Notes under the pieces: generated by a model
What the model saw: only the letters and a program-made list of their open reading frames with translations
The model's database searches: none
What the model was told of the DNA's origin: nothing
Program-made: the position numbers and the translations under genes
Shown here: in pieces, positions 43,893 to 46,714 of the stretch
Layout: every line of letters starts with the position of its first letter
Numbering within the stretch: the first letter of the stretch is position 1
Source of the DNA: Bacteroidia bacterium
GTDB lineage: Bacteria; Bacteroidota; Bacteroidia; J057
Direction: 5' to 3'
Length of the DNA stretch: 46,714 bases
NCBI GenBank assembly: GCA_019695295.1
Contig: JAIBAH010000022.1
Location: 1-46,714, forward strand

Positions 43893-44819
43893 ATGACGAT
43901 TTCACAACGGACGATTTCAAATCCGGTAAGTCTCTCCGGTACTGGATTACATACAGGAATTATTGCCACAATTACTTTTGTTCCCGCAAAAGAAAATACA
44001 GGAGTCATATTCAAAAGAACAGACCTGGCTGACAGTCCCGAACTGGAAGCCAATGCTCAGCTTGTGGTGGACACCCGTTTGGGAACTGTACTCAGCAATG
44101 GCAAAGCAGTAGTTCAGACTGTGGAGCATGTACTTGCTGCCGTTTTCGCATTAGGGATAGACAATCTTATCATTGAAATCAATACAAGCGAGCCGCCAAT
44201 TATGGACGGAAGCGCAATTGCGTTTGTTCAGGCACTGAAATCTGTCGGAATCGTGAATCAGAATGCACCTAAAAAGCAGTTTTTACTGACAGAAAAAATC
44301 ATTTACGAAGAAAAAGACCGGGACGTTTATCTCTCCGTCGAACCCCATCCGTACCTCGAAATTTATGTTGAAGTGGATTATAACTCTGAGGTATTGCCGC
44401 CGCAGTCAGCGTCTCTTACAAGCCTGGGTGATTTTGAAAAAGAAATTGCTCCCTGCCGTACATTTTGTTTTCTGAAAGACGTACTCTATATGCACAGTGT
44501 AGGGCTTATTCGGGGAGGCTCTCCGGATAATGCCGTTGTAATTGTGGATAAACCCCTTACCGAAACCGAAAAGCAACAACTATCCCGTCTGTTTCCATTG
44601 CCTGAAAATGAAATCTCATCCGGATTTCTCGGAACTGAACTCCTTTTTGACAATGAGCCCGCAAGACATAAGTTGCTGGATATAATAGGGGATTTAAGCC
44701 TTGTGGGTTTTCCGCTATCAGGGAAAATCATTGCGCGAAAGCCCGGGCACAAAGCCAATACCGAACTGGCTAAGCTGATTCAGCAGAAAATGACAGAGCT
44801 TGTTTTTTCTTCCAGGTAA
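43893..44819 (+). CDS. lpxC: UDP-3-O-acyl-N-acetylglucosamine deacetylase
   Basis: 308 residues, the length of a stand-alone LpxC. It catalyses the committed step of lipid A synthesis, removing acetate from UDP-3-O-acyl-GlcNAc. Zinc ligands are visible: His79 (TVEHV), His259 and Asp263 (RHKLLD), with the general base His286 (PGHKAN). In most Bacteroidota LpxC is fused at its C-terminus to FabZ in one protein of about 460 residues; here the frame stops normally at residue 308 and fabZ is a separate gene 157 bp downstream with its own promoter. Confidence 0.95.
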   Translation: MTISQRTISNPVSLSGTGLHTGIIATITFVPAKENTGVIFKRTDLADSPELEANAQLVVDTRLGTVLSNGKAVVQTVEHVLAAVFALGIDNLIIEINTSEPPIMDGSAIAFVQALKSVGIVNQNAPKKQFLLTEKIIYEEKDRDVYLSVEPHPYLEIYVEVDYNSEVLPPQSASLTSLGDFEKEIAPCRTFCFLKDVLYMHSVGLIRGGSPDNAVVIVDKPLTETEKQQLSRLFPLPENEISSGFLGTELLFDNEPARHKLLDIIGDLSLVGFPLSGKIIARKPGHKANTELAKLIQQKMTELVFSSR

Positions 44820-44897
44820 TAAAACAAGAAATAATTGCCCGTTTTCTGCATATTAAAAAACTACAAACTGTAGAAAATAATACTATTTAATACGCAA

Positions 44898-44930
44898 TTG
44901 TCATTAATATGAATACTTTATCTATCTTTG
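44898..44930 (+). promoter_or_regulatory. Promoter of fabZ
   Basis: TTG at 44898-44900, a 22-nt spacer and TATCTTTG at 44923-44930 (exact). It lies between lpxC and fabZ and supports separate transcription. Confidence 0.6.
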
Positions 44931-44976
44931 CAACGCGAAATATCTAAAGGAAGTCACTTTTTATTTAATTAAGATT

Positions 44977-45432
44977 GTGGAAAAATCAGAAATAGTATTT
45001 GATATACATCAAATCATGAAACTTCTCCCTCATCGTTATCCCTTTTTACTGGTGGACAGGATAACACACTTTGATGAGAATACCATTGAAGGTTATAAGA
45101 ATGTAACCATTAATGAGCCTTTTTTTGTAGGTCACTTTGAAGGCAATCCTATCATGCCGGGCGTACTTCAGCTCGAAGCAATGGCTCAGGTAGGAGGAAT
45201 CATGCTGATGAACAAGGTTGAAGATTATACAAAAGTATGGGTTTATATTGTTGGAATTGATAATGCCCGCTTTAAAAAACCGGTTACTCCAGGGGATAAA
45301 TTGTATTTTAAACTGGAAATGGATGTATTTAAAAGAGGCATTTGTAAAATGAAAGGCCAGGCTTTTGTTGATGGTAAACTTGCCTGCTCGGCAGACCTCA
45401 TTGCAAGTGTTGTCCCCAAAACCGAGGATTAA
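44977..45432 (+). CDS. fabZ: 3-hydroxyacyl-ACP dehydratase FabZ
   Basis: 151 residues with a GTG start. The hotdog enzyme dehydrates 3-hydroxyacyl-ACP in fatty acid elongation. LLPHRYPFLLVDR (17-29) and FVGHFEGNPIMPGVLQLEAMAQ, with catalytic His53 and Glu67, are diagnostic. Its product branch competes with lipid A, which uses the same 3-hydroxyacyl-ACP pool, so its place between lpxC and lpxA links the two pathways. In most relatives it is fused to LpxC. The promoter just upstream is strong. Confidence 0.95.
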   Translation: MEKSEIVFDIHQIMKLLPHRYPFLLVDRITHFDENTIEGYKNVTINEPFFVGHFEGNPIMPGVLQLEAMAQVGGIMLMNKVEDYTKVWVYIVGIDNARFKKPVTPGDKLYFKLEMDVFKRGICKMKGQAFVDGKLACSADLIASVVPKTED

Positions 45433-45499: not shown

Positions 45500-46495
45500 A
45501 TGGTTCATCCTTCTGCAATTATTTCCACTGAATCCGTCATTGAAAAGGATGTGGTTATTGGTCCTTTTTGTATAATAGAATCCGGCGTTACGATAAAAAA
45601 AGGCTCTGTTCTGGAGTCTCATATTATACTGAAAAGCGGAGTCACAATCGGAGAAAACTGCTATATTTCGACCGGTTGCTCTTTTTCTTCTGACGCAACC
45701 CGCCTCGATTTCCGGGAAAATAAATCAACAAATTCGGATCACCATGTTTTTGTTGGTAATCATGTACATTTTGAGCCCTACAGCACTGTTCACGGTTCTG
45801 TTTTTATTGGTAATAATGTATGGTTTGGGTCAAATGTTGTGATACATCACGGCGCAAGGGTAGGAAATTACTGCAAAATATTTTCAGGAGCTATCGTGGG
45901 ATCCATTCCGCAGGATTTAAAGTTTGAAGGAGAGGAAAGTACCCTTTGTATAGGAGATAATACAGTAGTAAGGGAGTTTGCCACCCTCAACAGAGGTACC
46001 AAGCACAGTAATACTACGATTATTGGCAAAAATTGCCTGATTATGGCGTATGTACATGTAGCACATGATTGCCGGATAGGAGATAATGTAATTCTGGCCA
46101 ATAGCGTAAATATGGGAGGACATGTTCAGATTGATGATTTTGTGGTTGTCGGAGGAATGGCGGCAATTCATCAGTTTGTAAGAATCGGGAAACACGCAAT
46201 GGTATCCGGAGGCTCCCTTATCGGGAAAGATATTCCGCCTTTTGTAAATGCCGGGAGATATCCGGTTCAGTACGAAGGGATTAATAGAGTAGGACTTAAA
46301 AGGAGGAATTTTTCTTCTGATCAATTGAACAGAATGCACGATATTTACAGGATTCTCTTTTGTATGGGGTATGCACACGGACACGCACTGGAAGAAATAG
46401 AGAAAAGCATTCCGGAATCAGTAGAAAAAAACGAAATCATGCTTTTTTTAAAGTCCGGCGAAAACAGAGGAATTATCAAAGGAATCAAGATTTGA
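45500..46495 (+). CDS. lpxA: Acyl-ACP--UDP-N-acetylglucosamine O-acyltransferase, extended form
   Basis: 331 residues, about 70 more than the usual 260. The enzyme starts lipid A synthesis by transferring a 3-hydroxyacyl chain to UDP-GlcNAc. The core is clear: IGPFCIIESGV, IPQDLKFEGEES, FATLNRGT, MAYVHVAHDC (catalytic His189, equivalent to His125 of Escherichia coli) and VGLKRRNFS in the C-terminal helical domain. The extra residues lie between about 52 and 117, where the segment STNSDHHVFVGNHVHFEPYSTVHGS and following hexapeptide repeats add coils to the N-terminal beta-helix. This could alter acyl-chain or partner binding. Confidence 0.9.
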   Translation: MVHPSAIISTESVIEKDVVIGPFCIIESGVTIKKGSVLESHIILKSGVTIGENCYISTGCSFSSDATRLDFRENKSTNSDHHVFVGNHVHFEPYSTVHGSVFIGNNVWFGSNVVIHHGARVGNYCKIFSGAIVGSIPQDLKFEGEESTLCIGDNTVVREFATLNRGTKHSNTTIIGKNCLIMAYVHVAHDCRIGDNVILANSVNMGGHVQIDDFVVVGGMAAIHQFVRIGKHAMVSGGSLIGKDIPPFVNAGRYPVQYEGINRVGLKRRNFSSDQLNRMHDIYRILFCMGYAHGHALEEIEKSIPESVEKNEIMLFLKSGENRGIIKGIKI

Positions 46496-46543: not shown

Positions 46544-46576
46544 AAAAAAACGAAACCGGATGAGTTTCGTTTTTTT
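46544..46576 (+). terminator. Terminator of lpxA
   Basis: A perfect 13-bp stem (seven A then CGAAAC, with GTTTCG then seven T) around the loop CGGATGA. Works on both strands. Confidence 0.85.
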
Positions 46577-46602
46577 GTTTTATTAACCCCTAACTTTTCC
46601 TG

Positions 46603-46616
46603 AACTTAGGTAACAG
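46603..46616 (+). repeat. First copy of a 14-bp direct repeat
   Basis: AACTTAGGTAACAG, repeated exactly at 46699-46712. This copy lies upstream of the promoter and may be an auxiliary binding site. Confidence 0.55.
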
Positions 46617-46657
46617 CTTTAAAAAATCAGCGAGATGTACAAAAAACTTTAAAAAAG

Positions 46658-46688
46658 TTGTTTTTTAGGGAACAAAGTTATACTTTTG
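46658..46688 (+). promoter_or_regulatory. Consensus promoter pointing off the right edge
   Basis: TTG at 46658-46660, exactly 20 nt, then TACTTTTG at 46681-46688 (exact). It drives a gene beyond base 46714. Confidence 0.7.
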
Positions 46689-46691
46689 TGC

Positions 46692-46708
46692 TACCTAAAA
46701 CTTAGGTA
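46692..46708. promoter_or_regulatory. Palindromic operator at the predicted transcript start
   Basis: TACCTAA-AAC-TTAGGTA, perfect 7-bp arms, from 4 bp after the -7 element. The right arm is part of the repeat at 46699-46712. Position and symmetry fit a repressor site for the next gene. Confidence 0.6.
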
Positions 46709-46714
46709 ACAGAA

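Follow-up and report, generated by a model that had tools for sequence, protein, structure and literature searches.

The left end of an apparently new insertion sequence carries a promoter palindrome made of its own terminal repeat core, a predicted site of transposase self-repression

In read-through protection of the type known from IS10 and IS50, an inverted repeat could make the translation start inaccessible on any transcript that comes from outside the element. Autorepression is described for IS1 of E. coli where, according to the excerpted text of PMC12428005, the InsA protein binds the inverted repeat and represses the IS promoter. Members of the IS1634 family are characterized, in the portion of PMC2266710 consulted, by ends of the form C-----YT (Table 1) and by an AT-rich target duplication of 5-6 bp. 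Here we analyze the right-hand edge of a stretch of 46,714 bp (the window, by which we mean this whole stretch), for which a preliminary description had proposed a promoter with a palindromic repressor site at its start and a second copy of the repeat upstream. The features of this edge are the following.

46582..46587, + strand: target flank ATTAAC, presumed to be one copy of a 6-bp target duplication
46588..46714, + strand: left end of an insertion sequence (IS), 127 bp, cut by the contig end and repeated at other contig ends
46588..46616, + strand: left terminal inverted repeat, identical to the right repeat at 25 of 29 positions
46603..46616, + strand: inverted-repeat core AACTTAGGTAACAG, copy 1, terminal
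46658..46660, + strand: TTG, presumed -33 element (putative function)
46665..46674, + strand: TTAGGGAACA, possible degenerate third copy of the core, recognized by eye
46681..46688, + strand: TACTTTTG, presumed -7 box, fitting the consensus TAnnTTTG given in the excerpt of PMC9723704
46692..46708, + strand: palindrome TACCTAA-AAC-TTAGGTA, presumed transposase operator over the transcription start
46699..46712, + strand: inverted-repeat core AACTTAGGTAACAG, copy 2, which is the right arm of the palindrome

The window is an entire contig (C22) of a draft assembly that comprises 223 contigs and 4,898,960 bases. Its final 127 bp terminate two more contigs, C209 over the full 127 bp and C10 over 122 bp, and matching right ends are present at C54:1-127 (exactly 127 bases) and C173:1-28, so that three left and two right ends were counted in the genome. 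The exact contig-end overlaps of 127 bases are presumably the trace of an assembler word length of 127 at a repeat. The terminal repeats, CCCTAACTTTTCCTGAACTTAGGTAACAG on the left and CCCTAACTTTTCCTTTGTTTAGGTAACAG on the right, are inverted with respect to each other. Region 46588-46714 is almost certainly the left end of an IS of which the genome contains three copies or more, and this repeat at the window edge accounts for the contig break. The interior of the element is absent from the assembly, in which just the ends were assembled; C54 encodes a 40-aa C-terminus that runs into the IS right end. Adjoining a further IS right end (L012:280-360, G000:C173), a direct repeat, ggcggaaacccaacgggttt, occurs twice within 80 bases.

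Contigs C209 and C54 flank one insertion, with ATTAAA on both sides, which corresponds to a 6-bp duplication. Joining them with a single ATTAAA restores a broken frame, which then ends in LNGKLIKQ followed by two stops; we take this frame to resemble the tail of a secreted protein. The left flank of the window copy is ATTAAC, as against ATTAAA at its candidate partner, C173. Among 16 flanks of the window's IS and of two relatives in metagenome-assembled genomes (MAGs, see below), 14 read TTAA from the second to the fifth of the six bases. The insertion in the window lies 92 bases behind lpxA (45500-46495; NCBIfam), and no gene broken by it was seen. A hairpin located between lpxA and the IS (46544-46576) is listed by the scan as a minus-strand terminator. 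Further upstream, lpxC and fabZ (43893-45432) are two separate frames about 157 bases apart, which match the two halves of the bifunctional NCBIfam model PRK13188.

In agreement with the preliminary description, TTG, 20 bases and TACTTTTG are all present in this order, as is the palindrome. The promoter points inward and is of the Bacteroidota type, and it would drive a transposase gene located just beyond the contig end. In the excerpt of PMC9723704, mapping in a flavobacterium places the -7 box at -12 to -5. Applied to the window, this rule would put the transcription start at about 46693, and the palindrome would therefore extend from about -1 to +16. The paired repeat 96 bp apart is confirmed in so far as the 13-mer ACTTAGGTAACAG occurs exactly at 46604 and 46700 (14 bases with the preceding A). 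The upstream copy, however, lacks the left arm and is just one half-site, and the layout is thus one palindrome plus one half-site and not two palindromes. The place of this upstream core copy is explained by the terminal inverted repeat, whose inner part it forms and whose right-hand counterpart contains it as well; the downstream copy has the same direction. Looping between the two core copies is possible.

Scanning 84,980 species genomes with a pattern yielded 18 stretches, eight of which are located at contig ends of two Cytophagales/Cytophagia MAGs (RDZP, 5; JAAFJG, 3); the other ten lie elsewhere than at those contig ends and were judged to be chance matches. Two contigs (L054 and L060) of the Cytophagales MAG JAAFJG (G400) carry 217 bases of the left end, consisting of the repeat, then TTTGTGTTACCTAATATTAGGTAACACAAA, which is a perfect 30-bp palindrome, 14 bases, and an ATG frame encoding the 36-aa N-terminus MATPDWALVQRKKNQEIKKIQNKYYLYEVSSVYDKE. 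By eye, the promoter of G400 is less clean than that of the window. Its right ends encode a C-terminus that is 43% identical, in aligned columns, to that of C54. A similar though imperfect palindrome was recognized by eye in RDZP (L065). G400 also contains a MITE-like piece of about 195 bp (region L063:1501-1700; G400:C67:55000-55178) which, by eye, has both IS ends and the central palindrome and is devoid of a gene. Searches of close kin for the left end, which covered 3 genomes of the genus, 13 of the family and, by a pattern, 22 of the order, each hit a single genome, the own one. Likewise, the own genome was the sole hit for the C-terminus among 395 class genomes and, with alignment A1, among 395 phylum genomes. 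Neither the left end nor either terminal peptide had a match in plasmids, the N-terminus had none in phages, and the 22 + 12 further viral-contig stretches, screened for the three peptides, contained no credible match.

Several other candidates were set aside. Locus L040 sits in a phage gene and was rejected as a relative. The 21-mer TACCTAAAACTTAGGTAACAG of the window is present within a long intergenic hairpin in three viral contigs of one phage type (L037:4602-4622, L038:951-971, L039:6326-6346); we judged this to be convergence on a plain hairpin rather than IS kinship, and it shows that such palindromes can also arise in another way. A hairpin-like repeat, TTACCTAACTTTTCCGACCGGTA-N-TTAGGTAA, which is a repeat of its own kind, occurs at differing places in three contigs of two Candidatus Nomurabacteria MAGs (L024:1934-1964, L029:2931-2961, L035:330-360).

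The family of the element was approached through its peptides and its ends. The three peptide fragments gave no credible Pfam or NCBIfam family, including NF033559. A search of 395 class genomes with the N-terminus gave something at E values up to 1 in 59 of them; the frames of L104, L106 and L107 were inspected and L106 alone was used. L106 is a 515-aa transposase with a weak N-terminus match (E 0.045, 63% over 19 residues), and NCBIfam assigns it to the IS1634 family (NF033559, E 5.9e-70). Its relatives include plasmid elements of Aliarcobacter cibarius and Carnobacterium maltaromaticum that are annotated as 'IS1634 family transposase'. In a tree of 19 transposases, for which the fragments of the window's element and of G400 are too short to be placed, these Aliarcobacter and Carnobacterium elements and one of Butyrivibrio form a clade with a support of 1.000. 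A profile built from four N-termini of this subclade retrieved the G400 N-terminus with an E value of 0.0015, the only one of 971 sequences below E 1, the value of the best decoy; the profile made from N-termini of the other IS1634 members did not find the G400 peptide. Neither of the C-terminal profiles finds the C-termini of the window's element and of G400. The IS ends of the window (CCCTAACT) fit C-----YT, and the 6-bp AT-rich duplication ATTAAA of the C209/C54 pair fits the IS1634 rule. Since the G400 N-terminus match, the ends and the duplication all point in the same direction, the element probably belongs to the IS1634-like subclade, as predicted from these sequences.

Elements of this subclade have other cores, and these too recur at the promoter. 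In the Aliarcobacter element and in Carnobacterium A and B, the cores (ATAACGA, ATAACTA) are found again in inverted pairs around the transposase -10 region, and in G366 an inverted core pair overlaps the start codon. For Carnobacterium B, the plasmid copy was replaced by a clean one, L161, located at a viral contig edge. For 18 elements we scored the longest word of the inner repeat that recurs inverted within 20 bases in the promoter region, with 1,000 shuffles for each element. Scores were 11 for G400 (p 0.001), 9 for Carnobacterium A (p 0.001), 9 for Carnobacterium B (p 0.001), 7 for Aliarcobacter (p 0.010), 7 for G366 (p 0.046) and 7 for the window's own element (p 0.096). In all six group elements the reverse copy comes first, and each palindrome is made of the element's own repeat core. 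Ten of the 12 other IS1634 elements score zero; the remaining two score weakly (Alicyclobacillus SO9, AAAAGT, p 0.014; A. fastidiosus, TGTGGA, p 0.059). An earlier version of the test, with 15 elements and without G366 and others, gave the same split and a p of 0.017 for the own element. These numbers describe rather than prove the pattern, because the test was designed after the palindromes of several positives had been seen by eye, because some element ends lack a clear duplication (e.g. Aliarcobacter and Rhodoferax), and because the elements are related, so that the six are not six independent cases. Left out of the 18 were Butyrivibrio, whose right end was not found, Rhodovulum and Gloeothece, whose ends are unclear, and L146, L147, L149, L151 and L163. 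By eye, a near-palindrome of 22 bp lies at the Butyrivibrio promoter, along with a 12-bp repeat that is shared with the presumed left end of this element. In an A. fastidiosus plasmid IS1634 element (L154:453-643) the promoter palindrome is CTGTGGATAAC-N-GTTATCCACAG, a word that recurs near both ends and which, we assume, resembles a DnaA box.

A cross table of promoters versus repeats shows three motif blocks, in which a core fits best the promoter of its own element or of a close relative. For four of the six promoters, the own repeat gives the best fit or one equal to that of a near relative; the Carnobacterium B promoter ties with the Aliarcobacter repeat, and the Aliarcobacter promoter fits the Carnobacterium A core (8) better than its own (7). 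On the sequences compared, the core-palindrome layout seems to be typical of one IS1634 subclade.

We propose the following model. In order to move the element, the transposase would necessarily recognize the repeat core at both ends. Presumably as a dimer, it would also bind the core-derived palindrome at the start of its own gene, and bound transposase would block its own promoter. Such negative feedback would keep the transposase level low. Self-repression by DNA binding is a prediction towards which we lean slightly, and the best overall explanation of the locus, which we consider moderately probable, is that it is the left end of an IS1634-subclade IS whose transposase represses its own promoter. 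More tentatively, and with somewhat less confidence than would make it probable, we suggest that a self-made operator may exist throughout the subclade, in Bacteroidota, Bacillota and Campylobacterota: the core would be duplicated head-to-head at the element's own promoter, both copies would change together with the specificity of the transposase, and the outcome would be a private feedback that senses copy number.

The preliminary description proposed a repressor that acts on the next gene and noted a likeness of the half-site, in the opposite orientation, to sites of DtxR-like regulators; on this reading the site would be the operator of a host gene under a host regulator. A repressor site at a promoter with an upstream half-site is a sensible reading, and the arrangement of promoter, palindrome and half-site on which it was based is real. 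What does not hold is the host gene as a target: the downstream gene would be the transposase gene, the upstream copy is an IS repeat, the stretch ends three contigs, and the matching right end carries a coding frame. Moreover, allowing up to two mismatches, the 17-mer has three forward-strand sites in the 4.9-Mb genome (one in the backwards-read control), all at the contig ends that carry the IS and nowhere else. For a DtxR-like operator one would expect additional sites close to iron or manganese genes, and this search with the 17-mer found none. The host-operator and DtxR-like interpretations were rejected on these grounds, and the probability left to them is close to nil. It is also very improbable that the palindrome arose by chance in an AT-rich IS end and has no regulatory role. 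When the 127 bp were shuffled 10,000 times with dinucleotides preserved, palindromes with 7-bp arms and a spacer of up to 6 appeared in 1,726 cases (17%), and the palindrome by itself is therefore unremarkable; the p of 0.096 of the own element points the same way. Direct repeats of at least 13 bases, however, appeared in 18 of 10,000 such shuffles, and a palindrome with an arm inside such a repeat in just 3 of 10,000. The combination of palindrome and 13-bp repeat occurs a single time in the 46.7-kb window, and the relatives share the layout.

Two further explanations assign the palindrome another function. According to one, it protects at the RNA level: transcripts from outside would fold the whole palindrome and hide the transposase start, and the element's own transcript, starting inside the left arm, would escape. 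In line with this, the expected start in the window falls inside the left arm, the starts of the window's element and of both Carnobacterium elements would lie inside or after it, and the right arm reaches the presumed ribosome site in both Carnobacterium elements. Predicted hairpin energies (kcal/mol) are -19.6 for Carnobacterium B (z -4.6), -18.4 for Aliarcobacter (z -5.2), -16.5 for G400 (z -4.7), -13.9 for Carnobacterium A (z -4.1), -8.1 for the own element (z -2.7) and -7.9 for G366 (z -2.4). The hairpin of the window is thus weak, and a hairpin as such requires neither arms equal to the element's own repeat core nor a fixed orientation. As a rival to self-repression we take RNA protection seriously but regard it as unlikely; the two are compatible and may both hold, and since a hairpin has no need of the core sequence, DNA binding is favored as the older role. 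It is less likely still that the inner copies are additional transposase sites with a role in assembling the transposition complex or in labeling the left end, effects on the promoter being a by-product. Retention of the ends and the central palindrome in the gene-less G400 copy (L063) would agree with this, but in the elements examined the palindrome lies at the promoter or the start codon, and the right ends that were inspected by eye had none in their vicinity.

If the self-repression model is correct, a promoter palindrome built from the repeat core would be a cheap marker of transposase self-control that can be read from sequence, and it would predict the binding site of each transposase from the DNA. 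The window also holds a warning, namely that IS ends can be misread as host operators. A thin literature check found no description of a core-derived promoter palindrome in IS1634; the IS end is new and, as far as this check goes, its layout seems to be undescribed.

Compared with known systems, the element resembles the IS1634 subclade in its C-starting ends that fit C-----YT, the 6-bp AT-rich duplication, the G400 N-terminus and the core-derived promoter palindrome. It differs in its core motif, TTAGGTAAC as against ATAACGA or ATAACTA. IS1634 elements are 1500-2000 bp long and have DDE residues; the window's element is known from its ends. With IS10 and IS50 it would share an inverted repeat able to hide the translation start in outside transcripts, but its arms are equal to the core of its terminal repeat. 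The proposed analogy with IS1 lies in the double action of one IS protein, which binds the inverted repeat and represses the IS promoter. The IS1 promoter has a partial overlap with the left repeat itself, whereas in the window's element it is an inner copy of the core, some 100 bp from the end, that is doubled to form a palindrome.
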